This document shows, in pieces, positions 8,427 to 56,300 of a stretch of 64,000 bases of DNA. Where the stretch lies: NCBI RefSeq assembly GCF_910592395.1, contig NC_088322.1, positions 12,581,431-12,645,430 on the forward strand. Reading direction: 5' to 3'. Each line of letters opens with the position of its first letter. The stretch's first letter is position 1. A program made the translations under genes and the position numbers. Source of the stretch: Lineus longissimus (taxonomy: Eukaryota; Nemertea; Pilidiophora; Heteronemertea; Lineidae). The notes beneath the pieces are model-generated. The model was not told where the DNA came from, made no database searches, and saw nothing but the letters and a program-made list of their open reading frames with translations.

Positions 8427-9815
8427 TGCTTTGTTGACCCGAGATTTGTCAGAGAAAGGCTTTATACGGCATCCACCGGTCGAGGTATTGTGGTGTGATA
8501 AGGAGATAGAATGTTTCAATGCATGCATGTACACACTAGAGTGCATTGTACTGGTGTGAAAGAAATTTAGTCCGCCTGGAGAATTAGTCATTCTCTGTTG
8601 TTTAGTGATTTTTCAATGATTTTGAAATCAAATTAAGACCAATGCCTTAGTTTACAACTCTGCAGAATATAGTCTTTCCTACAAATTTGGTCCTAATAGA
8701 TATTCGTCGCACACTGCCGACTGCGGCCCTCCAGGACCAGGAGGACTGACCAAATAACATCCTACGCACAACATTGAATGTTACTCCTGGTCAGTGCTGT
8801 AGGCCACAGTTTGTCCGTATTGATTTCGACAGTGTCTCTGGAGATCGATGTGGTTGTGACATTGTCCCTTAGGACTCTCGTTGGTTGTGACTCTGTCCTT
8901 AACTTGCGCCCTCAATAATTCTGTTTACAGTGCATGTAGTAGCAAAAATTTGATAAAGACTGAATGTAGTCTTTACTATTCTTGGTACTGGGTATGGTTT
9001 ATTCACCACCTGAGTATTTTCATTTCAGCCAATTCTCTCACAGCCAGGCTGTTTGGAATGTGGACGTTGTTGGCGGCCATTTTAAGAATATGCTGTGCCA
9101 TTGATATACACAATAAAAGGTACGTACAGTAGAACCTCTCTATTAAGGACACCCTCGGGACTGTCCTTAATAGAGATGTCCTTATTAGAGAGGTCAAGAC
9201 AAAAAGTGGCACGAAAGCAGAAGCAGTGGCCATTTCGCTTGTCTGTTCTCTCAGCTTTTTACGTTAGTGTATGTCTCTGTCCTCATTCCAGCATCTACAA
9301 TATTACTCTCATCTCCTTCTTTCTGGCCCTGGGACATTTTGCAAGTGAAGTCTTCATCTATAAAACTGCTGACCTGACGATAGGGATTGTCATACCGTTG
9401 ATTGTGTCAAGTAAGTACACAGTATTGGGAAGTCGCTGTGTTTCCAAGTGGAGATCACAAGTGTGTGTGTGTGGGGAGGGCAGTATAGTGAGGTCTTTTT
9501 ACATCATCTATAAAACCACTAACCTGACAACAAGAGTTATCATACCTTTAATTGTGCCTTTAATCATACTGCATCATGAAGTCCCTGTTCCTGTTCTAGT
9601 GTCGGCCTAGGTGACATTTAAAACTGTCTTACGACCTAGGGAACTGGTGTAATACTTCAGAGAGCTTTCAGTTTTCATTTCATGTTTCAGGTTTTTCCGT
9701 CCTTGTTATGGTCATTGGTTATTGGTGGACGGCGCCCTCTCTAGAGACAAATGGACACAAGAGAAGAGGAATGAAACGGGAAATGCTGTTTCAGACGGAC
9801 AACAAGAGTGATTAA
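8355..9815 (+). CDS. ERG28: ERG28 sterol-biosynthesis scaffold homolog, four exons
   Basis: Exons are 8355-8484, 9029-9119, 9292-9410 and 9691-9815 (stop TAA at 9813-9815). All junctions are GT-AG and phases agree, giving 154 aa against 140 in human. ERG28 is a small ER membrane protein that tethers sterol C-4 demethylation enzymes. The family signature is clear: GNTIQCFVDPRF, then ARLFGMWTLLAAILRICCAI followed by DIHNK, then FLALGHFASEVFIY and GIVIPLIVS. Four hydrophobic segments fit the known topology, and the C-terminus is basic. The ATG at 8355 was chosen because only this copy reaches a donor. Intron 2 carries a MITE fragment and intron 3 a relic of exon 3. An AATAAA lies at 10069. Confidence 0.93.
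9125..9196 (+). mobile_element. MITE, 5' fragment in ERG28 intron 2
   Basis: Begins TACAGTAGAACCTCTCTATT, then ACACCCTCGGGACTGTCC, and continues to TTATTAGAGAGGTCAA. It matches the left part of the element at 50078-50259 and stops there. It lies 5 nt inside intron 2, just past the exon 2 donor at 9120. Confidence 0.75.
9499..9565 (+). pseudogene. Relic duplicate of ERG28 exon 3 in intron 3
   Basis: The segment ATCATCTATAAAACCACTAA and what follows resembles the 3' half of exon 3, coding for (F/I)IYKT..LT..(I/V)IPLIV. It has several substitutions and no donor at the matching place. It appears to be a decayed partial exon duplication about 150 bp from its source. Confidence 0.6.
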
Positions 9816-12046: not shown

Positions 12047-15000
12047 TTAGATGATCTTGTTCAGCAGAGCGTTGTGGATGCTCACGGTCTCGTCTCCTAC
12101 CAGAACGATGTCATAGTTCGCCTTGAAACATGGAAGCAGATGCTCAACCTGGAAAACAGGGAAATATGATTAATTCGTCACAAAATGCATCAGATCCTTA
12201 TTTGGACGGTTGTTTGAGGCAACGTGAATGCCTGGTTTTCTCGATGGAAAGAGTGATTTGTCTGTGAGAAGTCGATGGGGTTTTAGTACCATAATTACAC
12301 GTACATTCCAAAATCGGTTGATTTTTTACCGGACACATTGACACACAGCATCACATCATTGCATGTTGCCTTAATTAAGTTGCTTTACTTCACAAGCCGC
12401 TGGCTAAGTCTTTTAAATCAGGCATACAACTGAGATCTCTCATACTTGATGTCTATGGCAGGAAAGGCAAAGGTCCCTATCCTAGAAAGAAACGTCTTCA
12501 GCTTGCGACAGTCTACTCAATCCAAGCCATCGATGGTGTCACTTAGCAAATAAACCCAAACAAAGGTCAAACACCGAAGAACTAAAACATTATTGCAAAG
12601 CTATCGACTGACCTTATCACTATCATTGAGGAAACCAATTTTGAGGATATTCGTCACGTGTCCAGCACCATCGGCCATTTTCAGATCACCAATTGTATCA
12701 CCCATCAGTATCGCATTTTCGCGGCTTCGCAGTTTCCCGAAATAATCAGAGTTGCCGATAGCACCTTCATTTTTGTTGAACGTGTGAATGAGCTCTCCAC
12801 GGAAACCTCTCAGTAAACCCTGAAAAACATAATGGAGACAAATTAATCTTTACTGCACGTGGTCACGAGGCAAGTTACATAAAAAATTATACAGTGGTCA
12901 ATGAAAATATGTACTCCCTGTCAGGTACTGACGACAATTTGATGTTTACAATTTATTTTACTGCTCAGGATTCAATTTTTTCCTGCACTAGGCTCTCCAA
13001 TGCATTGACAGGAATTTAGACTTGCCCGCGGGGCTGCAGACTCGAGTCAGATTTCGTTTCCTTTTCACATTATTAACATTTTTTAGCAGGCAGTATCCCA
13101 TTGATTTTCTGTGAAGCCAGCTTTTAAAACATTCTGAAATCATGGAAGTTGTGGGTGTGTGCGTCTTTGGGAGCCAAAGTGGGCAGGGATGCAGCAAATA
13201 ACATAGGGAGGAAACACAGACAAAGCTGGGGAGAGGAAGAGCAATTGTACATGCAATTGTTTTATGTGGCAGGGGCATTAGGAGGACTTGCTGAAGGCTG
13301 AGTTCTGGGGCAAGTCTGCAGTGATGGAGATTAGCTGTGAGCAATCGAGGCGATATGTGGTTGGAGATGGATTTCAGGGCCAAAATGGAGATGAAATAAT
13401 AATAATAATAATAATAATAATTGAGTTCTTATATAGCGCATTCCCAGGTTCCCTGCTCAATGCGCTTTTGGGACTACATTATTATCATCCCGGTCTCCAC
13501 AGAAATCAATCTGGGGTTTCAATGAGCAGCTACTGAGCGCTCGATTGAACTCGACCAGTAGGAAGTTTCTAAGTGGCGACTCAGCCGGGAATCGAACCCA
13601 CGACCTTCCGGTTATGAGACCGGCTCTCTGCCATTGCGCCACCGCAAATGGAAAAGGACGTCTGGGATGAGATGGAGATAAGCAGCAATGGAGATGGAGA
13701 TGACTTTTGGGATGAAATGGAGTGACCTGTTGGCTGAGATGGAGATGATTCTGTGACAATATGGGGGTGACCTTTGGGCGGAGATGGAGATGGCCTCTGG
13801 GACAAAATTGAGATGACCTGTGGGCAGAGGCAGAGATGACTTCTGGAAAAAAATGGAGATCACCTGTGGGCCGAGACGACTTCTAGGACAAAATGAAGAT
13901 GACTTGTGAGAAGGGATGGAGATAACTTCAGAGACAAAATGGAGATGACCTGTGGGCACAGACGGAGACGACTTCTGGGACAAAATGGAGATGACCTGTG
14001 GCCAGAGATGGAGATTTCTGAGAAAAAATAGAGAGGAGCTGAGGGCAGAGATGGAAATTACTTCCCAGACAAAAGGCAGATGACCTGGGGTGGAGATGGA
14101 GAAGACTTCTGGGACGAAATGGAGATGACCAGTGGGCGGAGATCAAATGATTTCTTGGACAAATGGAGATGACCAGTGGGCGGAGATGAGGACTTCTGGG
14201 ACAGAATGGAGATGACCTCTGGGTGGAGATGGAGAGGACTTCTGGGACAAAATGGAGATGACCTGGGCGGAGATGGAGAGGACTTCTGGGACAAAATGGA
14301 GATGACCTGTGGGTGGAGATGAAGACGATTTCTGGGGCAAAATGGAGATGACCTGTGGGTGGAGATGAAGACGATTTCTGGGGCAAAATGGAGATGACCT
14401 GTGGGTGGAGATGAAGACGATTTCTGGGAAAAAATGGAGATTACCTGTGGGCAGAGACAGAGATAACCTCTGGGACAAAAATGCAATGAAATGGAGATAA
14501 CAGGTAGGCAGAGATGGGGGTGACTTCGTGGACAAAATGGAAATGACCCGTGGGTGGAGATTACTGCTTAAGACGATGTAGAGAGGAGTTGTTGGATCAG
14601 TGGAGATGGAAGGTTAAGGGATATTACTTTTTATTAGAAAACAATGAGATGTAGTTAAACATGCTGTTTGTTATTTTTTATTACATTTTCTTTATTAGTC
14701 TTTCAGACTTGCATGCACCGGGAAAGGGGACGGCTCCAACATGCGTCAATTCCTTATATGCGAGTTCATTTTAGAATCCATCGTCTGGAATCCAACTGAC
14801 GATAGTAATAAAGTGTTCTTGCACAATACCATCTGGTCGATTTAAACGTCCGAGAAGGTGAACGCCCAATAGGCCCGGCCCGGCAGCAAGAGCCATTTAA
14901 GACACCCCCGGCAGAAACTGGCTTCACAATAGTCTCGACCAATGCATTTCACTGGTCCATAAACTACACATGTGCTTCAGGAGCACATTTTCATCCTGGT

Positions 15001-25700: not shown

Positions 25701-28700
25701 GCAATGGAAACATCTCTACCTTCTCTGTGTGATGTCTGAGTTCTGTTATTGAATCGACATGGTATTAGTTCTTTTCCAAAATCCCTTTCCACTTTGCAAT
25801 GACAAGGATGTTTTCAGACGAATTTTGAATTTGTTTCCTCCAACCATGCTGAGAGTTGGCTCCGAAAAATGTGTTGAAGGAGGTTCTATAAACCTTATTT
25901 GTCTAAATAAAGGACAAATTTGGTTTCCATTGTTTCTTCAAGAAACACCACAGTAAGAAAAGCAATTTAAAATCTTATCACTAATTCAGTTCCATTTCAC
26001 TAATTACTCTCTTTAATAAACAGTGACGGTTCACTGCACTCAGTTGGACCACTCCATCTGTGGCCTCTGTATTCACAAGCCTCAAACAAGAACAAACCAA
26101 TTAGCAGCCAATTAAGCTCCTTAATTGATTTAATTAATTAGTTTCCTTATTGAAAACTACTCAGGTATCACTGTATAAATACTAGTCTGCCTACCAAGTC
26201 TACATCAGTTGTGTCAGATCAATCAAGAGTTGACAACCAGAACCAAATTCACTCAATTTCCTTGGAGACATCAGTGCTAGCTATAAAGAGTTGTGATGTA
26301 TTCTGGAGGACCAGTTGCAGTTCAGTCCAGCTGGGAGACACAGACAAGTTTATCTGAATCATTTTGTGAAAGTTCTTTTGATAAACGGGATCAGGTTATA
26401 ATACACACTAAGACCATGAGGAATAAGAGAAATATTGTGCTCAAGAATACATCAGTTTGTAAGTTATATTTTGGCTAATTGAAAGATTTCTGTTAGTTCT
26501 TGTAAGTTTCAGGAAATATACTTGGGTGATCATTTTGGAGTCATGATATCGGTCAATCCCAATGTTTTTCTATATTTTTGATTGACAAAAATTAACATTT
26601 TAAATCTGGTATTCAAATTTTTCTTTTCTCTTCTTTCTTCAGGTGATGCAGAATTCAAACGAATCGTCTCTGAACTCGAGACATCAATCAACAGCGTATC
26701 CCCGGTGAAGGGCGCCATTAATCTGCAGGCGGAGATCGACCTTGCTCTCCAACCGCTGAGGAGTGAGAATTGTCAGCTGCGGAGACGTTTGCGGATCGTG
26801 AATACGCAGCTCAAGGAGAGAGAACGAAAGGAGAAGGAGAATATCAAGCCAGACAATAGCTTTGAATGTAAGTTTAAAATTTCTTTTTGTTTTGATGACT
26901 GTGATTTTGAGAGAAAATTTTGCAACTGAACAACTGAAATCAAGCCTTATTTTATGAAAACTAGCCTCGACTAGCAAATGTGTGAGTGGGACATCAAACT
27001 AATTACCGTCTATGTTGACTTATGTCCTTAATATGTCTGCGAATTTGTTTGTCATACATTTTCATTGCTGATCATTTTCTTCCAGTCGCACATCTCCATG
27101 CCAAGTATTCCTCCCTCCAACAAAAGTTTAATGAAGAGCGCGAGAAGAACAGTGGGCTGCAGAACAAGATCTACCAGCTAGAGGGCGATGTGGAAGCTGT
27201 CAAGACAGATAGACAGAAGATGATGTTGACACTCAGCGAGAAGGTATGTCCTCATTTGACTAACTTCAAGTTTATATTCTCATTTTAGAATGATGCGTGC
27301 GTCAAGCGGGAAGTATTTCCCTAGACGAAAAACCGACATTTGTTTCATTTTAAACCTGCATAATTAGTTTTGAGTTTCTGCCCATAGTGATTTTTTAAAC
27401 TTGCAAAAAATACACAAGCCAGCAAATAAACTTCTGAATTGAGCTGGAGATTACTTGGGAGTTTACAGCACACCAGTATGTAAACATAACTGGGTTTGCT
27501 CAGTTTAAAAAAGACCTTTCATTTTAGAAGCAGGTTCGAATCGAGTTCTAAAAAATCATATCTTCTTTTCAGGACACCGATCAGATGAAGACACGTCACG
27601 ACTGGCTTCAAGAGACAACCAAACTCAAGAAAGACCTCGACTCCTGTAATAAGAAGATCGACGACTTGAAAATCAAACTGGAAGCATCGGAGCGAGAACG
27701 TCATATCAATTCGACATCTCTCCAACAGAGGGACGTGGAGGTGAACAGGATGACCGACCTATTACAGTAAGTTGAATTTATGTTGGTGTCTTGCTTTTTA
27801 AACTTGTTCTCACATCATTTCGTTTAGCCAGTACACAAGCAACATTTCTCAAAGCCGTTCAGTCGTATCCCTTCAAAAATAAGAGTTATCAGAAACCTCA
27901 ATTCGAAGTTCAAAACCGCTTTAAAATCTTGGCTTTTCCAAACAAAACATCAAATAGGAGATGTTTTATTGCGTAACAAAACCTTTATCATGTTATACTG
28001 TATTGTATTTTGACTCTTTCCAGTGAATACAAGTTGCGTTACGACCCGTCACGCCCCCAGACTCCATTCTCCAATCGCAGCAGCCCTGCAGGTCAGGGGA
28101 CCAGCCGGTTGACTCGCCAAGCCCTGGAAGAATTCAACAAAACAAACCAACCCGCGGAAAAGGTCGGCTCACCTCTAGCCGATATGGAGGTCCGAGAAAC
28201 ATATTCCCGAAGATCACCCAAAGTTAACGCGGAACAAAACATCGAAAGGACAAGTCCATTCCGTCCAACGCGATTCGATGCAAGGCCAAGTCCGCAGGGA
28301 TTTGAAGGTAGTGTTGAGGAAAAACGTAGCCCTAACCAGGTTGTCCAAAACGACGTGCACACCAAATCAAAAACTGTGAGCTTCATGAAACAGTTAGATG
28401 ATCAGTCAAGTGTCGTTTCATCTGTTTCTGAGAAAGTTTCCCGAAGATCTACTACGCCACCTTTTGTTGCGATATCCAGGACTACGGAGACAACAACTTG
28501 TACGCCATTGACCCAGGAACCGACCACACCACGATCAGACACTTCAGCTTATTCACGTTACAGTGTTACGGATTATTTCAACAAATATCCACAAGGACAG
28601 TTCAGGCAGTATACGACTGGGTCGTACCACATGGAATCAACGCGGCAACAATCCGATTTGGATACTACAGTCTTATCATCGGTGACGTCGAGTTTTGACG

Positions 28701-28855
28701 ACGGAAAATCCATCGGCTCGGAATCAACAATAACGTCCTCTTCAGTTTCGTCAATAAATTCACAAGATGATCGCACATTCCGTGAAGGACTTGCTAACCT
28801 TGATGCTAATATTGCCCGCTTACAGAGCGCTTTGAAGAAGACGTCTGTGCGGTAA
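22726..28855 (+). CDS. CCDC14: CCDC14-like centriolar-satellite coiled-coil protein
   Basis: Supported exons are 22726-22969, 23345-23500, 23847-24962, 26643-26867, 27086-27243, 27573-27766 and 28024-28855 (stop TAA). All junctions are GT-AG with agreeing phases, about 970 codons plus a first exon. CCDC14 sits at centriolar satellites and affects centriole duplication. The match rests on an early block AYSLYSISSDSESDDAQKLN followed by LNKCAQLLTDML, and a later block LIGELRALAGGDAEFKRIV followed by LALQPLRSENCQLRRRLRIV. A heptad-rich coiled coil spans roughly exons 26643-27766. The large central exon is Gln/Asn/Pro-rich and likely disordered. The Ser/Thr-rich C-terminal exon ends with a short helix ANLDANIARLQSALKKT. 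The family assignment is from memory of conserved blocks. Confidence 0.8.
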
Positions 28856-35369: not shown

Positions 35370-38300
35370 CTACAAGTAAGAAGTCAAAATAGAAACTCTT
35401 ATAAAACTGTCAAAGTCCTCTAGGTGCACTTTAGATTGGTGAAGCGACTGATTTTTTAACCGAGTATGAATGCAGAGTGCTTGAGAGCACGTAGAGGAGC
35501 ATACATTTGTTAAAACTGTAGAAATACATGTTTCTTTTGATAGGCACAAATCTGTCCACCCTCCAAATTTATCACTTACTTCAAAATGTTGCTCCAGGAC
35601 CTCAAAATATTCATGCAGCGGCAGTGCACCGCTAAAGGATGCCTGGAATCCATCTTGGTTTTTACCCTTAAAGTAACCGCTCAGTCGGTTGACGAGCTCG
35701 TTGGCGAGTAGCCACATTGGTTCGAAGCTGTCACACTGAAGACGGTAGCGCTCTGAGAACAGAAAAGTTTATGATTTGATGACAGTTTTGGGGAGAACTT
35801 TATGACTGTTCTGTTGATTGCAGGTTATTGCACAGGAAAGTTTGAAAGATCACAGCAGAATCATCTGAACATCTCTTCTGTCTTACTGTTGCTTTTTCAT
35901 TTCTGTTTTGGCTCAAAAAGGCAATCTAAACGTGTTTAATTTGAATTCCAATGTTTTTACTGACGACCCCATATCATCAGGAGAAGAAGATAATCGCAAC
36001 TGGTGGGAAATTCCATTATCCTGCATTGGAGTGGAAATGGAAATGTCATGGCCTACATATTATTATTCACAGATCTTACGTGATATCTTTGATGCCAACA
36101 TTGTGACCACAGGACCCCCATAGTACTGGAACCCCAAGGCATTGCCGGGACCATCAGCATAGTCACCAAGAAGATCTGAAAATACAATCAATAAACCTTG
36201 TTGTTACTTTTAACACAACTAATTTCTTGTGCGAATTGAATCTAAACTAGTGCACTGGCACCACACACTTTTTTTACCTTCGGTTGTCTAAGAGTAATAA
36301 ATAGATAGACCAGTAAACTATGTCAACAAATGAGTGGTCATAAGATAAAAAAAATACCTATGATATCACTCTAGGCCATGGGACAAATCTCAAACTTGTT
36401 ATCACTGAAAATATTGACTTGATAAGGCTCATTATTCAAAACACCTACCCAGCTTACAATGGTTCCTAAAAGATTGCCTTTTTAGGTCATGGTTTAGTTC
36501 TAGATTCGGTATCATAACTACAACCAGATCACGACAAATATTGAAGACGGGCGTAGCCAGGGCGCACTAGCAAAACTGACTACAGCTGACATCAAGTTAG
36601 GTGTAATATAGAACAGGTTTGCCTTTAGTTGGATTTTGTTCAAGTAGTTTGTGCCTTGATAAGCACACAATAACCAGATTTATCAACAGAAACATTGGTT
36701 GAGTATACAAATTCTTCGGTGTGTGACTTATCTGATATACAAGCATGCAGCTTCGCCAATGGATGGAAATAAATTGTTATCTCAGCCACATATCCTTCGC
36801 CAATGGATGGAAATAAATTGTTATCTCAGCCACATATGCGAACAGGAAGGAGTTCAAGGTGAAGTCCAACATACCAGTGTTAAAAGTTAAATCACTTTCT
36901 TTTGGTCACATTTGAGGAAGCTATGCAAAACACATACTTTTCAATGGATCTTCCATGGAGAGTTGGCAACATGTATGCACATTTTGAAGCATAACGCTAT
37001 GAAATATAAGTTTTCATATCAAAACTCAAGGCACTGGATGACATTAGAATATACCTTCCATATCTAGTGAATAGAGACTTAGCTCACGACACCATCTCAA
37101 AGGATCCTCGGAAAAAGGTAAGAATTTTTTCTCCAGCTGTTACAGTAAAGACCAAAGTTTTGCCAAGAGGTGTGACAAGGTCACCAAAGCTGGTTATGCT
37201 TGAAATCATGTGAAAAAGTTATTTGCAATAAACTATGTGAACACAATATACACGCAATGTACACAAATTTGATTCGTGTACAGAACCCTGTAACTGAAGA
37301 GGATCTTTGGATTGCTGACAGTGGTGACCCCTGTTGCAGTCTGAAAAAATAGCATCGCAAAGCGAGCATAACCCCTCAGCCTATTAAGGTTGAAGGTGAG
37401 ATAATGGTGAAGTTGGCTTAGTGGAGTGGCTAGTTTGCATATGGAAATTAAAATTGTGGAAACCTATTTTGAGGATGTGAGCGTGGCGGCCATATTGAAT
37501 TTCGAATCGCGCTGATTTTCGAAAGGAACCTTCCCCTTACAAAACTGCATTAGGCCTACACTCACTAAAAATTGATTCCATCCTCCAAGCCGTTCTCCTC
37601 GAAATTGACGGAAAAAGATTTCAAGCACGTTGCCCTGGTGACTATATTGAGAATCAGAACGAGCCTGTTTTCGAAAGGAACCTTCCTCTAGTCACCCCCA
37701 ACGTACATACCAACAAGAGGCCCAAGGGCCTGGCGCTCAGCTGAGTTAATATCATTAATATCTTCCCGGTGTTTAGTTCATTATGCATGAAAATGGCATG
37801 CTCCATGGAATTTGATATCCTTTTGCGTTCACTATACGGTACCAATGTTTTTGGTTGACATAATTATGCCACTGTTCATTCCTCAATCCTGACCATAATT
37901 CGGGTGAAATCATCGTATGAAAATATTTACCGAAACATGAAGTTTATGCCATGAATGAGGATACGAGACAAGACCACTAATGAATATTCATAGATTGGAG
38001 GGTCGAGGCCTATCAATTAGACGAGTGCATGTTTTTTACTCTCAAGTACATATTTGGAGAGGTATTGAAAAAATATTTGTTGTGGCAAGTCTACAGATAT
38101 AAAGAAATTATTTGATGAAAAAATTAATTTCGAATTTTGCTAATTGGGTAATAGGGGGCGTGTTTTGAGTTTTTTCTGCCAGTTGGCTGAAAAGAGTGGA
38201 AATATCAAAGTCTGTCTAATTTGTCGATTATCAAAAAATTTCTGTGGTCAATCACCATTTTATTTTTCACCATTTACTTGCCCGACTGTCCGGAATAACA

Positions 38301-41300: not shown

Positions 41301-44300
41301 TGGGAAAAGTAAAAACGATTTCGATAACTATAGGTTTTTGTTGATATAAGCGACTAGCGGGAAAATGCACATGTGTTGTTATGTCACTATTGCATCTATT
41401 CGTAGTAGACTGTCGTATTTTGAGATCCCCTTTCTTTTCAACATCATCAATCATACTAGCATATCATAACCATGGATAGAGATAAGTTAGAAAACTGTGT
41501 CAACCTCCTTCAACAAGTTGTTGGAATAATGGGGAGAGAGGTGGCGAATAACAACAACGTCAACAAGCATACGGCCGCCAGCAATCTACAGTGGCGCCGC
41601 CTGTTGACTTCGCATCGTTATCTTTGACGTGGTGTATGGTCTAGATGTCTTTGATGTGGCACACATAGGAGTATCAATTTACGTGTCCTTGATATGCTAC
41701 ACAAGTGTCTTTGCTTTGGTTTGTCTTTATTTGCGGTAATAACCGCCCAGGAGTATAAATCTACGTGTCCTTGATATGCTACACAAGTGTTTTTGCTTTG
41801 GTTTGTCTTTATTTGCGGTAATAACCGCCCATACCAGTGCCCATATGTAAACGGATACCTTCTCTGCAGAGCACACGTCATTTTATTATCAGTTCTACTA
41901 TCTGACAGTCAGGGATGGTGCCTTTGTTTCTTTTCTGCGTTAAATATTGGCCATAATACTCTGGCAAGTCGAGCAGGTTCATCCAGTGATCCCCACAGCT
42001 TGGTCTTTAGCTCTACTGCCTCTGGCCAACTCTTTAGTCATGGCAGGGAAGTCAAGAAATCCTGCAGTATGTCGCTGAAATTTGGATGGCACTCCCGTAC
42101 AGAATGTCAAGTCTTTTTTGAGTAGGCTCATCACCTCTGTTTCCATTTAAGGGAAATAAAAGGCTTCCATTCTGTCTAGGGGTCTGAGAGTATTCAACAT
42201 ATGGCTGTAATTTGCTCATCGCCAATCGAAGCAATCAGGATGGTGCATTGCACCATGGTCTCGGCCAGCCTCTCCTCTTCTTCCTTTCTCAGTTTCTTTA
42301 AGTCGGAGAATTACTCACTATCAGGTTGTTCACTCATTACAGGAATAGTCACAGACCAACCGGTTGATACAAGAACTATAGCGGTTTGATGATGGAGGAG
42401 ACACAAGCAAAAACAGCTGACCAACGACTGTTGGATGCAGTAGATGAGGGGAAATTGAAAGATGTTAAACACGCAATCACCGCTGGTGGGGATGTGAACC
42501 AGAAAGACAAAGATGGTAAGCTACTTGTGCAAATAGCTATTAAAAACCTCATTCAAGCACTAAAAGACCAAGACCAGGCTACAACTCAAGATGCAAAGAA
42601 AGCAATTGTAATAGAATTAGTAGAGCATCATGCCAATGTCAATGAACAGGGTGTATATGATACAACTGCGTTAGGATATTTGCTAGCATGGCAATTAAAT
42701 TCATTATACAATGAAAGGCAAAAACTGATTCTGCTTGATGTTGTTAGAGTGTTGTTAAATAATGGTGCTGATGTCAACATCAAGGATATTGGTGGTAAAT
42801 CTCCTTGGCACAGAGCAGCTAAGACCCCTTCCATTGAACTTCTGAAGTTATTTTTTGAGAACCAGTCTGATGTAAATGTCAGGGGTACAGGTGATCAAAC
42901 CGCACTTCATACTGCTGATGACACAGACATTGTTAGATTATTGATAGAAAACAAGGCTAATGTCCATGCTACAGACAAAGTAGGCAGAAGTCCACTCTCG
43001 TATGCGGCACAGAGACGTAACATTGATGTAGTCAGATTATTGATAGAAAACAAGGCTGATGTCAATGCTAAAGACATAGTAGGCAGAAGTCCACTCTCGT
43101 ATGCGGTCGAGGAAGGTGACATTGATGTAGTCAGATTATTGATAGAAAACAAGGCTGATGTCCATGCTACAGACAAAATAGGCAGAAGTCCACTCTCGTA
43201 TGCGTTACAGGGAGGTAACACTGATGTAGTCAGATTATTGATTGAAAACAAGGCTGATGTCCATGCTACAGACAATGCAGGCAGAAGTCCACTCTCGTAT
43301 GCGGCACAGAGAGGTGACATTGATGTAGTCAGATTATTGATAGAAAACAAGGCTGATGTCCATGCTACAGACATTGCAGGCAGAAGTCCACTCTCGTATG
43401 CGGCACAGAGAGGTGACATTGATGTAGTCAGATTATTGATTGAAAACAAGGCTGATGTCCATGCTACAGAAAAAGCAGGCAGAAGTCCACTCTCGTATGC
43501 GGCACAGAGAGGTGACATTGATGTAGTCAGATTATTGATAGAAAACAAGGCTGATGTCCATGCTACAGATGATAAAGGCAGAAGTCCACTCTGGTATGCG
43601 TTACAGGGAGGTGACATTAATGTTGTCAGATTATTGATAGAAAACAAGGCTGATGTCAATGCTACAGACGATGAAGGCAGAAGTCCACTCTCGTGTGGGG
43701 TACAGAGAGGTGACATTAATGTTGTCAGATTATTGATAGAAAACAAGGCTGATGTCCATGCTACTGATGATAAAGGCAGAAGTCCACTCTCGTATGCGTT
43801 ACAGAGAGGTAACATTGATGTAGTCAGATTATTGATTGAAAACAAGGCTGATGTCAATGCTAGAGACAAAGCAGGCAGAAGTCCACTCTCGTATGCGTTA
43901 CAGGGAGGTAACATTGATGTAGTCAGATTATTGATAGAAAACAAGGCTGATGTCCATGCTACAGACAATGAAGGCAGAAGTTCACTCTCATACGCAGCAG
44001 AGAGAGGTCACATTGATGTAGTCAGATTATTGATAGAAAATAAGGCTGATGTCAATGCTACAGACAAAGAAGGCAAAAGTCCACTCCTGTATGCGTTACT
44101 TGAAGGTAACATTGATGAAGTCAGATTATTGATTGAAAACAAGGCTGATGTCCATGCTACAGACAAGGTAGGCAGAAGTCCACTCTCGTATGCGGCACAG
44201 AGAGGTGACATTGATGTAGTCAGATTATTGATAAAAAACAAAGCTGATGTCAATGTTACAGACGATGAAGGCAGAAGTCCACTCTCGTATGCGGCACAGA

Positions 44301-47300
44301 GAGGTTACATTGATGTAGTCAGATTATTGATAGAAAACAAGGCTGATGTCAATGCTACAGACAAAGTAGACAGAAGTCCACTCTCGTATGCAGTACAGAG
44401 AGGTGACATTGATGTAGTCAGATTATTGATAGAAAACAAGGCTGATGTCCATGCTTCAGACGATGAAGGCAGAAGTCCACTCTCGTATGCGTTACAGGGA
44501 GGTGACATTGATGTAGTGAGATTATTGATAGAAAACAAGGCTGATGTCCATGCTACAGACAAAGTAGGCAGAAGTCCACTCTCGTATGCGGCACAGAGAG
44601 GTAAAATTGATGTAGTCAGATTATTGATAGAAAACAAGGCTGATGTCCATGCTACAGACAAAGTAGGCAGAAGTCCACTCTCGTATGGGGCACAGGGAGG
44701 TAACATTGATGTAGTCAGATTATTGTTAGAAAACAAGGCTGATGGCCATGCTACAGACAAAGTAGGCAGAAGTCCACTCTCGTATGCGGCACAGAGACGT
44801 AACATTGATGTAGTCAGATTATTGATAGAAAACAAGGCTGATGTCCATGCTACCGACGAAGTAGGCAGAAGTCCACTCTCGTATGCGGCCGAGGAAGGTG
44901 ACATTGATGTAGTCAGATTATTGATAGAAAACAAGGCTGATGTCCATGCTACAGACAATGAAGGCAGAAGTCCACTCTCGTATGCGTTACAGGGAGGCGA
45001 CATTGATGTCGTCAGATTATTGATAGAAAACAAGGCTGATGTCCATGCTACAGACAATGAAGGCAGAAGTCCACTCTGGTATGCGTTACAGGGAGGTGAC
45101 ATTGATGTAGTCAGATTATTGATAGAAAACAAGGCTGATGTCCATGCTACAGATAATGAAGGCAGAAATCCACTCTTATATGCGGCACAGAGAGGTAACA
45201 TTGATGTAGTCAGATTATTGATAGAAAACAAGGCTGATGTCAATGCTACAGATAATGAAGGCAGAAGTCCACTCTTATATGCGGCACAGAGAGGTAACAT
45301 TGATGTAGTCAGATTATTGATAGAAAACAAGGCTGATGTCCATGCTACAGACAATGAAGGCAGAAGCCCACTCTCGTATGCGGCAGAGAGAGGTGACATT
45401 AATGTAGTCAGATTATTGATAGAAAACAAAGCTGATGTCAATGTTTCAGACAATAAAGGCAGAAGTCCACTCTCGTATGCGGCACAGAGAGGTGACATTG
45501 ATGTAGTCAGATTTTTGATAGAAAACAAGGCTGATGTCCATGCTACAGACTTTGAAGGCAGAAGCCCACTCTCGTATGCGGCAGAGGAAGGTTACATTGA
45601 TGTAGTCAGATTATTGATAGAAAACAAGGCTGATATCAATGTTACAGACAATGAAGGCAGAAGTCCACTCTGGAATGCGTTACGGGGAGGTGACATTGAT
45701 GTTGTCAGATTATTGATAGAAAACAATGCTGATGTCCATGCTACAGACAATGAAGGCAGAAGTCCACTCTGGTATGAGTTACAGGGAGGTGACATTGATG
45801 TAGTCAGATTATTGATAGAAAACAAGGCTGATGTCAATGCTACAGACAAAGTAGGCAGAAGTCCACTCTCATATGCGGTACAGAGAGGTGACATTGATGT
45901 TGTCAGATTATTGATAGAAAACAAGGCTGATGTCAATGCTACAGACAGCGGAGGTCTCAAGCTACTTTGTCTTGCAACACAAAACAAAGAAATATTCGAT
46001 GAACTGCTTAGATGTGGGGCAGAAATTGATGTCTCAGATCAAAGAGGTCTAAGTATCCTACACATTGGATTAGCGAGTGTTAGTGAGAGCTTATTGTATG
46101 TTCTTGTGGAAACTGTCAATGCTCCTGGAAGTTACAACAGGACAATGCTTTATGTCGCTGCAGCGCTTGGGCTCACTAAACACATGGCAGTCTTGCTCCG
46201 ATATCGTGGAATAAATGTGAATGCCTGTGACATCTTCGGCATGACTTGTCTTCATTATGCAACAATAATAGGAAATGAAGACATAATCCGTAACCTTCTC
46301 AAGGCAGGGGCCGATATTGGAGCACTGGATACTGCAGGGAGGTCTGTTTTGCATATTGCAGCAATCTATGGACATTGCAAATTGATAGAAACTTTCACTC
46401 AAATTCAAAAGGACTTGCTTCCTCATGCAGGAGACAACCAAGGACGGAATTGCCTACACTATGCTGTAATCTACAGAAGAGATGAAGTAGTAAAACTACT
46501 TCTCAATGATCAACCAGATTCTCAAATTAATTCTATCAAGGACAATAAGGGAAAGAAGCCAATGGACTATCTGTACAAATTTGAGGAAAACACTTTGATA
46601 TGGAAACTGTTTGGCAATCAATCTCCAGTTATCAAAATTATCAACGAATACACTGACCTCTCATGCCACAAGAGTGAAACAAATCTCTTAGAGGTATCAA
46701 AACAGTGTGGTATCGGCTCTGTCAAGACAATTTTAGGTTTTGATCTGACAACTTTTGCAAAACAAATCAAATCAAAAGTTGAAGAGGTGATCCGTGAAGC
46801 TATACCACAGTCTGGTGATGTTGAAGTCATTGGCTGTGGAAGTTCCTCTGAAGGTTCAAAACTTGGACTTCCAGATGAACTAGATTTCATGGTCAAACTA
46901 TATTCAATTCAATACCAATATCTGGCTAGTGAGGGCTATGGAGAGATGGTAAGAGATAAAGAAAAGAATACAGAACTGAATACAGAAAATACACCATATG
47001 GTATATGGCTGTGGAATAGACTGATGATCTACTGGAGTGAACATCAGCATCAAAAGGAAGGTAAACATCAAAGAACTGATCATGAACCCGAGTTTCAGAT
47101 GCCATTGCCTCCAGTGCGACACCCTGATCAAACAACTTGTACAACCTGGATCTGGTTATATAGTGATAGTATGTTCAAGGATTTGGCAGTTTCAATAGAT
47201 TTTGTCCCTGCTATTGAAATTAAGGATTACGCCATGAAGCGCTTTATTGTTCCAAAAATACCACACAAAGAGAGCACCATCTCTAAAACTTTCACCACAG

Positions 47301-50300
47301 AGAAACTGAACCAACTTGGTCGCATATCCCATCCAACGATGGAGGTCGAGCTCCTACTCAACTTGGACCAATACTTGATGGATGTGTTCATAACAGCAAA
47401 GAGCCTACGAAAACCTGAGGTTTGTGGATTCAAGATGAAGAATGACAAAGATGAGACAGTTCCAATGGGCGAGTACATTACCAGCTACAGACTGAAAACT
47501 TCATTTATGCATTTCATAGAAGTGTTTAAATTTTCAAAGATGTCACTTGGCAAAATGGTGCTGATAGTCTATGAATATCTAGAGAAATGCCTCCAAAGGG
47601 GCAACCTTCCATCATTCTTTAAAGATGAATTGGAAAGACCAGTGAATGTGCTGGCTGGATCCAAGTTGAGTAAGGAAGGTAGCATTCTGGCAGCAACGAA
47701 AATGACAGAATTTGTAAGGTGTTTGTATGAAAGAGATTTCTCATCAGTTAAAGACTTGGATTTAAAAGAGGAGCAACTTGCAAGAAGAAAGTTTAGGGCC
47801 ATTTTCAGATAGGAAGACAGAATGAACATGATGACTGGAGCCTGTCAAATTCAGTCTGCAATCTAGGCCATATCATATCCTTATCTGCTAAAACTCAGCC
47901 TCGTTGCTAAAACTCAGCCTCGTTTTGGTACCAATGCATGATAGTGCATTGGTACTGCAATGTACTACCTGTCTGATAGAGAGTAGCCAAATGATTATGT
48001 GTCACTAAAGTGTCCCCTGTGACCATACAGTTACCCACATCTGTTTCAATCTTGCTGATATTGGAGAATAGGTTACTCACTGACTGTTTATGATATTTAT
48101 CCTCGAACATATTATCCTATTTAGCTCCAGTAGACAGATTAATAATCCTAAATAATCCTGAAGGGTGTGGCTGCCCTTTTTGGGCGTGTTCTGGGAGGCT
48201 TAAAGAGCCTTGAGGGTGAAAAATCCACTAGGCCTCTCTCTTGATATCTTGACTAATGGTATGCAAAATGTTGATTTCATATCTCAACTGGTCTCTGCTA
48301 TATTATTGGTTATAGTCATGAGGGGCAGGGTTCTAAAATGCCAATCAACAGAAAAAAGCTGTCGTCTTAGCGTAGTCTCAGCCAATTAGCTCAGTATCTA
48401 TGCACATTTTGGCACATAATGATGCCTTCTTTCAGATGCAAGCGGTCTGATGGCTTGAAATTAAAATAGTTCTGAGAAATCTTGAAATAAACAGTGGCTT
48501 GATAGATGGGGTCAAACATGCTGAGAGACACATGTTGGGTGCCATGTTCTGTGAGGCTTAGAGTTCAAGACAGTTGATGTATGATATCCATGGGTGCATA
48601 ATGTCCTAAGGTACCAAAATATAGTCATCTTAAACTGAAATATACCACACATGATGTAAAATCAGTACTTTGTTGGTGCTCATTTTGCAAATCAGAGTTA
48701 AAAATCCAGGACATGACCTACTTCCTTGATGCACATTCTGTATACCCTGCACGAGTATGCATGTGTCAGTTTAGGCGTTGGTGTAGTGGTTGCTATGGCG
48801 AGGGCATTTTCACCATTAGTTAAGTTAGTTCATTGTAGAGTTTGAAGTAACTAGTACATATACCTAATTAATAATATATCCCAAATGTCCACTTATATTA
48901 GTTAGCATAGCCCCATAGGTTTATAATATTCATGAATTTTTTTATCTTTCACCCATGGGTGGATGGAGCCCATGTGGTCAGCATGAGTTAGTTGTCCAAC
49001 AGACAACATGCTTGGGGTTGTTTCTTTTGGATTGCTATCCAGTCATCACGGATGCCTCTCTATCCCGGAATGGCTATATTGAGCGTGTCCTAATTAGAGT
49101 CTGGCCTGCATGTAAGCAGATATGCCACTCAGCGTAAACCAAACCGAGGCCATCAGATTATGCGGGAACTGATATCAATTACATATTCCTGGTCTGGATC
49201 GTAGACTGATTGGATGTTTTACTACAAAGAGAGCATCTTTACATTTTGAGGGTATTTGTACAGAGGTATACCTTGACATCAGAAGGACTCAATCCATTCA
49301 AAACTGCATCAGAGGGCATATGGAACAGGTACATAGTAACTCATATTGGCCTACGGAGGTCAAGTCAGAGGTTCCAGCTAATACTTGCCCCCCAGTTTAT
49401 AGTAGATTAGAACAGGCAAAATGTGCAAACTTGTACTCTACACTGTACATCAGCTGATCAGAGCTTCCAACCTCTGCTGTATGAAGAAGATCTTATTAAC
49501 TATCGAATATATCCAACCCATGACTCTTGGTATTTTTACACTTTTAGCGTCTTACCCAAGTGTAAGAAGATGATGATTGACCCAATTTAATCTGAGTATT
49601 AGCAAACAACATTTCAACCTGTGCTAGCGTCAGAACTATTTCTGTGAAGACAAAATAGTGCGGATATCTTACAGATCAAATCATCTTATCACAAGTGTTA
49701 CTGCAAGTGTACCAACACTGTGGCAATATTTTGGACACTTTTTTTTAATCATCAGTATTATGGGAAGCAGTAAGGAAATCGCAGCAAACCGCTTCACATC
49801 GCAAGGTGCATTTCAGCCAATCCACTAGCAACATGTTTGCACCCTTCATACAGCCGAGAGGGTGCCACAAATAATCAGACTCTTGAAATTTGCCAAATGT
49901 GCAAACTTGGTCTAATGGTGACAACAGAGTGTACATGTTCACTCAGTACAATCGAAATTGGGACTTTGCTGTCTGTGTCAAGCTGTGGGCTCCATCCCAA
50001 ATGCTTTTGAGGTTATCTTGACATCATTACCATATCATGACACGATATTTGAGCACAGTAGGTTTATGACACCTGAGTACAGTAGAACCTCACTACTAAG
50101 GACACCCTCGGGACTGACAAGTGTTGTCCTTAATAGAGAGGTGTCCTGATTAGAGAGGTCAAATTGAATGGAAAGAACCAATTTGGGACCAAAACTAGTG
50201 TCCTTAATAGAGTGGTTGTCCTTAATAGAGAGGTGTCCACTAAAGGAGGTTCTACTGTATATCAGTGTCTTTTGCTTGTAACAGAAAGTAGGAATCCAAT

Positions 50301-53300
50301 GCTAGTAGCGAGGAATATTCTATAGTCCTCGACCAACTGTTCGAAACTAAGCAAATTACAAACTTGGTGTGAATTTATTAAACGTGGTGGCATTGCATTC
50401 ATATCAGCCCATTAGATTCAACGTTAAGTTGAACGTAACCTAAATGTAAATGATGCTTCCTTTCTTGTGCCATTATTTTAGCCTATAAATAGCACCCTCT
50501 CTAATGATATGTTAGATGTAAATGATGTTTCAACTGGCTGAGTAATAATAGAAATGAGTGACAAATAATTTCTTGTTATGTTATGTTAAATGCTTATGAT
50601 GCTGCTTCTAATTTTTCTGTAATTATAAATGTATGATAAATATTCCATATTATGTTGTGTTAGACTGATACAAATGATGAAGCATCAACTGTTTGAGAAA
50701 TCATACCAGTGTATGATAAATATTCCATATTATGTTGTGTTAGACTGATACAAATGATGAAGCATCAACTGTTGGAGAAATCATACCAGTGTATGATAAA
50801 TATTTCATGTTATGTTGTGTTAGACTGATATAAATGATGATGCTTCGACTGTTGGAGAAATCATACAAGTGTATGATAAATATTTCATGTTATGTTGTGT
50901 TAGACTAATATAAATTATGAAGCTTCAACTGTTTGAGTAATCATACCAGTTTATGATAAATATTTCATGTTATGTTGTGTTAGACTGATATAAATGATGA
51001 AGCATCAACTATTTGAGTAATCATACCAGTGTATGATAAATATTTTATGTTATGTTGTGTTAGACTGATATAAATGATGAAGCTTCAACTGTTTGAGTAA
51101 TCATACCAGTGTATGATAAATATTTCATGTTATGTTGTGTTAGACTGATACAAATGATGAAGCATCACTTGTTTGAGTAATCATACCACTGTATGATAAA
51201 TATTTCATGTTATGTTGTGTTAGACTGATATAAATGATGAAGCTTCAACTGTTTGAGTAATCATATCAGTGTATGATAGATATTCCATATTATGTTGTAT
51301 TAGACTGATATAAATGATGAAGCTTCAACTGTTTGAGTAATCATACCAGTGTATGATAAATATTTCATGTTATGTTGTGTTAGACTGATACAAATGATGA
51401 AGCTTCAACTGTTTGAATAATCATTCCAGTGTATGATAAATATTCCATATTATGTTGTGTTAGACTGATACAAATGATGAAGCATCAACTGTTTGAGAAA
51501 TCATACCAGTGTACATGTATGATAAATATTTCATATCATGTTGTGTTAGACTGATATAAATGATGATGCATCAACTGTTTGAGTAATCATACCAGTGTAT
51601 GATAAATATTTTATGTTATGTTGTGTTAGACTGATATAAATGATGAAGCATCAACTGTTTGAGTAATCATACCAGTGTATGATAAATACTTGATGTTATG
51701 TTGTGTTAGACTGATATAAATGATGATGCTTCTACTGTTTGAGTAATCATACCAGTGTATGATAAATATTTCATATCATGTTGTGTTAGACTGATACAAA
51801 TGATGAAGCATCAACTGTTTGAGAAATCATACCAGTGTATGATAAATATTTCATGTTATGTTGTGTTAGACTGATACAAATGATGAAGCATCAACTGTTT
51901 GAGTAATCATACCAGTGTATGATAAATATTTCATGTTATGTTGTGTTAGACTGATATAAATGATGAAGCTTTAACTGTTTGAGTAATCATACCAGTGTAT
52001 GATAAATATTTCATGTTATGTTGTGTTAGACTGATACAAATGATGAAGCTTCAACTGTTTGAGTAATCATACCAGTGTATGATAAATATTCCATATTATG
52101 TTGTGTTAGACTGATACAAATGATGAAGCATCAACTGTTTGAGTAATCATACCAGTGTATGATAAATATTTCATATCATGTTGTGTTAGACTGATACAAA
52201 TGATGAAGCATCAACTGTTTGAGAAATCATACCAGTGTATGATAAATATTTCATGTTATGTTGTGTTAGACTGATACAAATGATGAAGCATCAACTGTTT
52301 GAGTAATCATACCAGTGTATGATAAATATTTCATGTTATGTTGTGTTAGACTGATATAAATGATGAAGCTTCAACTGTTTGAGTAATCATACCAGTGTAT
52401 GATAAATATTTCATGTTATGTTGTGTTAGACTGATACAAATGATGAAGCTTCAACTGTTTGAGTAATCATACCAGTGTATGATAAATATTCCATATTATG
52501 TTGTGTTAGACTGATATAAATGATGAAGCTTCAACTGTTTGAGAAATCATACCAGTGTATGATAAATATTCCATATTATGTTGTGTTAGACTGATATAAA
52601 TGATGAAGCATCAACTGTTTGAGTAATCATACCACTGTATGATAAATATTTCCATATAATGTTTTGTAAGATACCAATGAATGATCAATAATTTCATGCT
52701 CTGTTACATTAAATGTAAATGATGATGATGATGGTCTTTTTGGGTAATGATATTTTGATGCGTGTAAAGTTTGTAGACTTGCCACCACAGCGGGGAAATG
52801 AATTTGTTTTGCCTTGGGCTGTTTGAAATATAGAATATACGATCCACGTAATGTCATTCCCTATTACAAGTGTAAACAATGATTTTATGCTGTTTGAATT
52901 ATCATATATGTGATAAATTCTTATGCTGTTTGAGTTATGATATTGATAAGCTAGGAAGTCTTTGTGGAGACCTGTTCACAATGAAGCTTTTGTGCCTTGA
53001 TACAGATCCTGGTTATCATAAGTGACAGGTGCTGCAGAAAAGGCACCATTATTATAGTCCATTGATAAATGTTATGTCCGCATCATTTGGGGCTCTGGAG
53101 GGCGAATTACTGGTCAGATTTCTTTGAAGTTTGGTTTTTATTGGTTTTCACCTCAAAACCAAACACGATTTTTTACCTTAGTTACGATTTTTTTTGTATT
53201 TATTTGTGCACACTGATGTCCGCCCTGTACGGTTTATTTCTAGACCAATCTGTATGAAATATATTAAGGTTATTATTTTTTGTGTTCATCTGACATAAAA

Positions 53301-56300
53301 TTTATGAGTGGACTAGTATAGGAATTGCGTAAAAAATCAATGAAATTTCAATTCCCCTGTATTAAAACGATAACTTTGCTGTTGTTTGTGTAACTGTAAT
53401 CGATAAATGATCCCAAGTAGGCCTATTGTTTTACATGACCCATAAACAATAATGCCTGTGCTAAACATGCTAAATGAAATATCATATGAAATAATATTCT
53501 ATGTTGCACTTACTGTACATGGGAATGTTACCCTCTTTGTTTCATCAGACATGATCTGAACAGGGATCGAACTCAGAACCTCAGAGGTGATAGGCACTGG
53601 TGATAAATTTGAACAACAGTCTTATACTGCTATGCCAATCTGTCAGCCGATATATGCCCACAAACAGAAATAGAAATACAATCCATATAAGCCTATGTAT
53701 TAAATGGATGATCCTCTAAGCAACTGAACACTGACTTTCAATATTTTTTATTACGCGGAACATTTTCAATATTGTCATGGTTTATATTAAGAAACTCTGT
53801 CAAACTTTGAAAAATAAATTGTAATGTGATTAATATAGAAAAGTTTTTTTATTTCCTATGTTATTGTTATGAAATGAGATGTAATCAATGCATATGCCCC
53901 AATCACAAGCTTTGCAGGCAGAAGGGATGTCATCTGAAAACCTGAGCCCACTGTCAGATTGAATGTTGGTATATTCTCAACAGGGAAAACATCACCAAAG
54001 TCGACCAGTGACTGATTCGGGTCATGGTCAGGACATGATCCAATCTTTCTTACCTGGGGAGAGATCATTGACGTTTATAGCCCTAGTCACAAGTTTGTAA
54101 GGAGACGGAAAGTCATCTGCCGAGCCCTGGGGTTTGTTGTCTGCTGTGACCAGACAAATCATGGTCCATTCTTACCTGGGAACAGGTCATTGAGGTTGAC
54201 CGGTGGTTTATTTGTATCAATGGTCACTTTGTAGTTGGCATTCTTGATCGGAGCACACGCCTTCATCACAAGTTTTGCAGGCAGACGGAAGGTTGTCTGT
54301 GAAACTCTTGGCGCACCTGAAAGTGAAATAACATCATTAAGAAATGAAAAGTTTAAGATGTAAACAGTTTTGTTGATAATGATGATGTCAACACTTGATT
54401 TGAGGAAGCCAGAGCCAGAGACAATTGGAACATTGATTTATTTTTCACATGACCGATAACAAATTTGGTTTATAAAACCAAACAATGCCATGTCACATTA
54501 GTTTAACATCATGAAGAGAACAAGAACAGACTGTAAGGCATCATCATCAAATTTAGCACCTGGCTGCATGTGAATTTGGTAGCCCGAGCCCCGACTTCAT
54601 TGGCAACCTGACTGACAGCAAGAAGACGATGTCAACTTCTCACTAATTTCTTTTACTACAACTGATTGAGAAAATTTTCCCTGATGTTTAAGGTGGATGT
54701 ATAAACTTTCTCAACCGAATTTCTCGAAGCGCTAAATGGCCTTATGGAATTTCGAGCTCTTGAAATCTTTACATAGTTGTCTTTGATGTAGAAAGTCGCT
54801 GAGATTTCACATGGGGTGTTTGGACCTGCAAACGGATGGACGAACTCAGTGAATAAGAATATGCATTGAAATAAATGTCTGTTATCTTAGGAAGTCGATC
54901 AGATATCCAAAGAACTGACTGAATTGTTTTCAAAACCATTTGACTAAAACAGACCGACTTTTCAACTAACCCACTTTACGACGGACACTATGATTCATGG
55001 GGTAACGTCATTGCTATGAATGTTTGGGCCTGATTACCACCCAGAAATACTGACAAATCAGTTCAGAGCAAGAAGACATAGCTAATCCATTCACTTTTTT
55101 CCAGCTTGCAATCAACAACTTTCCTGATAATTTCACACTGATCAATATTTTATGGAGAAAATTTCACCGAAATGAATGACTTACTTATTGTGTTGAATGT
55201 AAATGAGCTCTCATTGACTGTCAGTGGTGGGGGGACATGGATGCTGACGACAACATTGGAGACGTGGGCCTTGGCTTTTATCATCACCTGAAGAGATGAC
55301 GGAGACAATGATAATGGTGAGTAAATGTTAGATTTTCTATCATATCAAGTCTGCATTCAAATGGACAAGAAGGGGAATGGATGTATTGAAATGGAGTATA
55401 AAATCCCAGATGACCATAATGGGTAAACAGGGCTCCCAAAAAAACGAACAGTCACATTATTTTCAATGAAACGGCCAAGGGCCATTGTGCTCACTGTATA
55501 CATCTTTAGTAGACAGTAACATGCTTAGTTTACCATGTTTACACATACCCAACACTAATAGGCAATTTATTTCATTTGACCGCTCTGACCTTGAAAAGCA
55601 AATTTTAGAGTTTGACCTCAGTGACCTTGAAAAGAACGCAATATCGACCTTAAGTTTTGTCAAAACGTACAAATGCCTAATAAGTGTCTTCATACCACAT
55701 TTAAAGACTGTACAACAAATAATGACAAAACGTGCCACTATCAGTGAAATTTGAGAGTTTGACCTCTGTGACCTTGACAAGTAGGTCAAATCAAAAACCC
55801 GTACGATATGTTCTGTATCCTTGCTAGGGGTACCCACAATGAAAGTTTTAGCAAAAACAAATCGGTAATACATGAGTTATCACACTTTTTAAGTTTTTGG
55901 TTTTAGCCCCCTGGTGGCCAGGTGAAGAATCAGATCGGACCGAAATTCGCTGTCGGAGGTCATGTGACCTAGGTCATAATGTGTACAAAGTTTCAGCTCA
56001 TAGCACAAGCGGTTAAGAAACGTGCCACACAGGATACGGACGACGGACGCCGGACGACGACGACGACACAGGGCTATGGTAGAGACTCCCCTGACGGTGA
56101 GCCAACAACCCTTGGAGTCCAAGCACTTGTACCAGAGTCGATGGTGGTTCTTTCTTTAGGAAAAATGAGACCTAAGATTATGATTTGGTCCAGAAGTTGC
56201 AGCTCCAGAGCCAATCTGTAAGGCGAAGTCAGGAGAAAGTTGCAATTCCTCTTTCAGCTCAAAACACTCCAAACTTTGCTTCACAAAGGTGACTCTGGAG

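Follow-up and report, generated by a model that had tools for sequence, protein, structure and literature searches.

The window analysed here is a stretch of 64,000 nucleotides from the nemertean Lineus longissimus (assembly GCF_910592395.1, contig NC_088322.1, positions 12,581,431 to 12,645,430 of the forward strand), and the gene of interest within it, ANK-cGLR, places a long array of ankyrin repeats ahead of an enzyme domain predicted to resemble the cGAS-like receptors (cGLRs). The gene occupies positions 42389..47812 of the window on the plus strand as a single exon, an ATG-to-stop open reading frame (ORF) whose translation has 1807 residues, and in-frame stops are present upstream of 42389. 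By our reading of the sequence, residues 1-195 (42389..42973) are degenerate ankyrin units. They are followed by 30 near-identical units of 33 amino acids (residues 196-1185, 42974..45943), located with Tandem Repeats Finder (TRF) and repeat analysis; by divergent linker ankyrin units common to the paralogues (residues 1186-1440, 45944..46708), which are 38-85% identical to the L. longissimus ankyrin proteins P0002-P0006; and lastly, from Pfam and the predicted fold, by a cGAS-fold nucleotidyltransferase (NTase) and helix-bundle domain (residues 1441-1807, 46709..47809). When the degenerate units before and after the array are included, a loose count gives 38 ankyrin units in the whole protein, in agreement with a preliminary description of this DNA that had placed an ankyrin array before the enzyme. 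P0002-P0006 are also the closest named proteins, at 44-88% identity. The window's stop codon lies about 17 residues before that of P0002, and the sequence that follows it (47810-47880) resembles the P0002 tail in another frame.

At the DNA level the array is a 99-bp tandem repeat at 42935-45947 (TRF: 30.4 copies, 90% matches). Mean pairwise identity among the 30 units is 90% in DNA and 80% in protein, and every unit is distinct in DNA. Eight positions of the unit are variable (2, 3, 9, 12, 13, 14, 16 and 31, across 42974..45943 on the plus strand), and the 30 units carry 30 different combinations at these positions. The 184 substitutions from the unit consensus create no stop codon, where 9.5 would be expected if change were blind to the frame (0 of 5000 simulations), so the array is protein-coding and constrained rather than a chance open frame. 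The reverse-strand ORFs that overlie the array are by-products of the repeat.

The preliminary description had also claimed a cGAS-type fold for the C-terminal part and had named structure comparison in advance as the test of that claim; the comparison found the fold. In the model, which was built from a 13-sequence alignment, the predicted domain gives a strong match to cGAS structures over model residues 1-340, that is, over the NTase core and the C-terminal helix bundle, which points to structural homology with the cGAS, cGLR and CD-NTase enzymes. An earlier model, with a pLDDT (predicted local distance difference test) of 50, gave meaningless fold matches and was superseded. Aligned identity to human cGAS and oyster Cv-cGLR1 is 15-19% among the matches listed, and the window domain, unlike those two, is not basic. 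Neither of these two proteins is known to have an ankyrin array. The catalytic layout proposed earlier from the letters is borne out, with G1484 and S1485 of the activation-loop motif at 46838..46843, the putative first and second acids, E1497 (12 residues after S1485) and D1499, at 46877..46885, and the putative third, D1604, at 47198..47200, 104 residues separating D1499 from D1604. The suggested Mab-21 relationship fared less evenly. With the C-terminal piece, the Pfam model Mab-21_C (PF20266) reaches 24.6 bits, just over its cut-off of 24.1, but the whole protein gives 21.7, which is under it, and the Mab-21 NTase model (PF03281) has a sub-threshold 13.4 on the piece; among ten relatives scanned, PF20266 passes in six and PF03281 in three. 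Ankyrin-repeat chains were among the best 60 matches of a PDB profile search made with the full alignment, while in NCBIfam the enzyme had no match and the ankyrin-effector names returned for P0006 lay far under the cut-offs.

A search of the whole genome for the enzyme domain (391,118,348 bases; the published assembly, from HiFi reads, is given as 391 Mb in PMC8593623) returned 93 six-frame matches, which merge into 74 loci. An open frame of at least 800 amino acids is present at 66 of these, of at least 1000 at 50 and of at least 2000 at 11, the longest being 3205, while five loci are short or broken. Thirty-three loci, the window and L009-L040, were read in the DNA; these were chosen from unbroken frames, leaving out the five short or broken loci, and are consequently a non-random sample. 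All 33 carry ankyrin units and the three acids E, D and D. The gap between acids two and three is 83-129 residues in 30 of them and longer in L030, L032 and L040, where it contains inserts: it measures 249 in L030 (to the first of two candidate acids) and 171 in L032 and L040, and in L030 and L040 the inserts are partly repeated segments. A tree of the 33 domains divides them into a group of 12 and one of 21, both supported, with the window falling among six genes of contig C15. Those six genes (177 repeat units) are termed tandem family A here, and eight genes of C12 (142 units) tandem family B.

The published cGLR motif is h[QT]GS X8-20 [DE]h[DE]h X50-90 h[DE]h (PMC9980059). All 33 genes, the window included, have its G[S/G] activation loop, [E/D]h[E/D] pair and distal acid, but the window departs from the exact printed form in having Cys before GS and a last gap of 104 rather than 50-90; the gap lies within 50-90 in three of the 33. 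Because of these two departures from the motif, we label the domain a cGAS-fold, cGLR-like enzyme, and use the term cGLR with this reservation.

Repeat number differs widely between closely related paralogues, all within one genome of one individual. Family A genes have 30, 17, 20, 48, 45 and 17 units and family B genes 27, 22, 4, 11, 6, 33, 20 and 19, the repeats of both families being about 90% identical in DNA. Repeats are as alike between gene copies as within them. In the window's units, positions 2-3 (a hairpin pair) are linked, as are positions 12-14 (a helix pair), while the pairs 3-14, 2-14 and 3-12, which join the two groups, are weakly or not associated (1412, 258 and 176 of 2000 shuffles, respectively, reach the observed value), a pattern that recombination would be expected to produce by exchanging portions of units. 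Among 27 genes whose arrays were tested, 20 have at least five alike units, with a protein identity between units of 0.74-0.95 in 19 and of 0.62 in L016; for comparison, the criterion for high-internal-conservation (HiC) repeats of Dyrka et al. (2014, PMC4986451) is more than 85% identity over at least 100 amino acids. With four window units as the query, the genome gave 157 matches, 150 of 1101 candidates having been scored, and among the matches listed from these only the six C15 cGLR genes exceed 50% identity to the window units. Nine other listed matches lie in frames with no cGLR match (one each on C11, C1 and C12, two on C9 and four on C20), which indicates that other ankyrin genes exist in the genome; the C12 match and the four on C20 adjoin a cGLR locus. 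Some loci are more elaborate. In L029 the array is composite, with two types of ankyrin unit in alternation, and the enzyme is followed by a tail of tandem repeats; L031, whose frame of 3205 amino acids is the longest of all, has a unit type like that of L029, with units 95% alike. At L020 and at C20:10403611-10404681, ankyrin-only frames (1212 and 710 amino acids) stand directly upstream of two cGLR frames, which may reflect either separate exons or a gene that has been split.

We fixed a binding set a priori, namely the six positions that libraries of designed ankyrins randomise, which we take to be those that contact a target. In the window, the proportion of replacement differences (pN) at this set is 0.239 against an overall proportion of synonymous differences (pS) of 0.091, a ratio of 2.6 (bootstrap over repeats 1.9-3.6), and the ratio outside the set is 0.73. 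The corresponding ratio at the set is 4.3 in family A (gene bootstrap 3.5-5.9) and 4.6 in family B (3.6-5.8), and of 20000 random sets of six positions, 25 match the observed pN in family A and 326 in family B. When distinct variants are counted, replacement variants per site of the set number 3.2 in family A, with a synonymous figure of 1.36 (p 1.6e-4), and 2.8 in family B, with a synonymous figure of 0.55 (p 4.3e-8); outside the set neither family shows a significant difference between the two rates. Under a null model that follows the mutation spectrum, family A has 27 single-step variants at the set where 18.6 are expected (15 of 4000 draws reach this number) and family B 20 where 10.7 are expected (1 of 4000). 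Gene by gene, of the 20 arrays with at least five alike units (from the window and L009-L034, members of one family not being independent of each other), 18 have a ratio above 1, and the binding set beats random positions at the 5% level in 17. We read these sequence comparisons as pointing to positive diversifying selection at the predicted interaction positions, subject to the effects of recombination and to the use of positions taken from designed ankyrins; the methods differ from those of Dyrka et al.

The enzyme domains also change quickly. Among close copies, dN/dS (replacement over synonymous substitution rates) is 1.16 in family A (15 pairs) and 1.22 in family B (28 pairs), both being pooled ratios, since some single pairs show no synonymous change. 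In both families the variation is concentrated in two loops, one after the strand bearing E and D and the other after the strand of the third acid, and the catalytic residues are invariant despite these hypervariable neighbours. The two loops may be a surface for a ligand, a partner or an antagonist.

The window copy shares a segment (41833..47851, plus strand) with five tandem copies at C15:13.95-14.04 Mb, at 89-92% DNA identity. Homology to them resumes at 49208..49500 on the same strand, at 96-98%, position 49500 being the end of the compared piece, while about 1.36 kb of window DNA before 49208 is absent from the C15 copies. Since the homology starts about 550 bases before the ATG and is found again downstream of the gene, duplication at the DNA level is indicated, and retroposition is not favoured. 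On the minus strand lie two exons of BBS9 (PTHB1), at 35373-35768 and 54162-54437, matching residues 596-656 and 517-565, respectively, of solved BBS9 chains; as the two are ordered as one gene, ANK-cGLR, which lies between them on the opposite strand, appears to be nested in BBS9. An Erg28-like exon (9086-9607) and a CCDC14-like exon (27977-28852), both on the plus strand, are ordinary neighbours, and with Erg28, CCDC14 and BBS9 all being animal genes, bacterial contamination is unsupported. A viral origin was likewise set aside: there was no viral structure match at E of 0.001 or below, and the 38 pattern matches in viral contigs included no sequence coding for a relative. A Pfam scan of the 30 other ORFs of the window found matches in four, and Rfam and tRNA scans of the 64 kb were empty. 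There are also two other tandem arrays, an AT-rich 80-bp repeat within the BBS9 interval (50630-52671, 25.4 copies, 93% matches) and a 46-bp repeat (13690-14480, 17.6 copies) with overlapping minus-strand open frames.

Our interpretation of these results, which as a joint claim we consider somewhat probable, is that the family is a germline repertoire of intracellular, ankyrin-sensing synthases of cyclic nucleotides with a STING-type output. The ankyrin array, which the preliminary description was in our judgement right to propose as a recognition part, would bind a protein, either derived from a pathogen or belonging to the host and altered by one. Such binding would release the C-terminal cGAS-fold enzyme, whose product, a cyclic dinucleotide, would act on a STING-type receptor, giving the family a role in immunity. 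Within tandem families, recombination would keep the repeats alike while their number changes, and selection would drive them apart where they bind targets, with no change in the catalytic residues, the outcome being a set of inherited specificities carried on one kind of enzyme.

Several observations weigh against this interpretation. The binding positions are taken over from designed ankyrins and are putative here. For the window alone, the frequency-free test on distinct variants is suggestive only (p 0.06); pN/pS also exceeds 1 outside the binding set, at 1.46 in family A and 1.48 in family B; and of the 20 arrays, two show no replacement excess (L016 at 0.9 and L031 at 0.6) and three (L018, L022 and L031) fail the random-position test. 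Seven of the 27 tested genes do not reach five alike units. That repeats are equally alike within and between genes suggests exchange, which violates the independence assumed by the selection tests, and the enzyme dN/dS of about 1.2 means that fast change reaches beyond the array. Lastly, the isoelectric point (pI) is above 8.5 in 6 of 27 family domains (five of family B and one other), so some family members may still bind nucleic acid.

Such basic domains would fit an ordinary ANK-cGLR, in which nucleic acid is detected by the groove of the enzyme domain itself, known cGLRs being sensors of double-stranded DNA or RNA through this domain (PMC9980059), and the array does no more than anchor, cluster or localise the protein, its variability reflecting relaxed constraint and slippage. 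Slippage is easy in tandem arrays, and the raised pN/pS over the rest of the unit in families A and B is also in keeping with this account. Relaxed constraint, however, predicts a ratio of at most 1, whereas the a priori positions give values above 4 in both families and the distinct-variant counts and the mutation-spectrum null agree with an excess; moreover, the window domain is near neutral (pI 6.8), while nucleic-acid-sensing cGLRs have a pI above 8.5 (PMC9980059). We regard this explanation as unlikely, although worth serious consideration. Less probable still is a catalytically silent, Mab-21-like scaffold, in which the fold and acids merely persist in a repeat scaffold or a developmental role: the spacing of 104 between acids two and three, outside the published range, would suit it, but such a scaffold would be expected to lose its acids, and G-S, E, D and D are kept in all 33 genes despite strongly variable adjacent loops. 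We think it very improbable that the array answers to self/non-self recognition or to conflict with a selfish element rather than to pathogens, an idea favoured by the inclusion of heterokaryon incompatibility genes among the fungal repeat proteins that are the closest parallel (PMC12222747, PMC4986451) and by the movement of the window copy as a DNA segment, though the sequences do not separate self/non-self from pathogen pressure.

The fusion itself is real, but of a known kind. The preliminary description held that cGLRs normally lack a long repeat array and that the architecture might be new; the first statement is mistaken or too strong, and the second does not survive Li et al. (2023, PMC9980059), who report cGLRs with ankyrin or TPR repeats, including, among 42 cGLRs of S. 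pistillata, three fused to ligand-interacting domains such as ankyrin. The ankyrin-fused cGLRs of corals and other animals share with the worm family a cGAS-fold enzyme, ankyrin repeats and large gene radiations, some bivalves having more than 200 cGLR proteins (PMC9980059). No further domain accompanies 87% of the cGLRs in that survey, whereas in the worm ankyrin repeats occur in every gene read, and arrays of at least five alike units in 20 of the 27 tested. Oyster proteins joining a Mab-21-like cGAS domain to DED-TRADD-N and TPRs (PMC8195603) similarly place a cGAS-type domain in a large, lineage-expanded, repeat-bearing protein, but their repeats are TPR rather than ankyrin, and their adaptor domains have no Pfam match in the window protein. 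What is new is the diversifying, number-variable array together with the size of the family, 74 related loci that lay beyond the view of the preliminary description. The sections of PMC9980059 used here describe neither variation in repeat number nor selection on repeats, and "nemert" does not occur in the text of that paper. Within the accessible text of open-licence articles in PubMed Central, we found no report joining an ankyrin-cGLR fusion with diversifying, near-identical repeat arrays in animals and no paper combining Nemertea, cGAS and STING, and passages of PMC6321704, PMC12424679 and PMC10855445 hold nothing on ankyrin-cGLR arrays.

The closest parallel to the arrays lies in the fungal NOD-like receptors (NLRs) with ANK, TPR or WD repeats, such as HET-D/E (PMC4986451). 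As in the worm, their tandem repeats are near-identical, vary in number, carry replacement changes at predicted interaction surfaces and evolve in concert within multigene families. Two differences are that the fungal signalling module is NACHT or NB-ARC rather than a cGAS fold, and that the fungal variation is seen across isolates, the worm's within one genome; among metazoans, highly conserved ANK, TPR and WD repeats are rare (0.8%; Dyrka et al. 2014, PMC4986451). A bolder version of our interpretation, offered tentatively and in our view rather doubtful, is that the family is a repertoire of intracellular protein sensors that diversifies itself: number-variable ankyrin arrays, hypervariable at their binding surface, would switch on cyclic-dinucleotide synthases, and the length and content of the arrays would vary between alleles and perhaps somatically. 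It would be a cGAS-based counterpart of the fungal NLRs or of the variable lymphocyte receptors of lampreys.

The known ligands of cGLRs are nucleic acids. For the acidic, auto-active cGLRs, the ligand sensed was left open by Li et al. (PMC9980059). An array that varies at its putative binding positions, attached to an enzyme whose catalytic residues stay fixed, offers a direct handle on the sensing by cGLRs of something other than nucleic acid. If our interpretation is true, animals too would use a repeat-shuffling route to receptor diversity, as described in the fungal NLRs.

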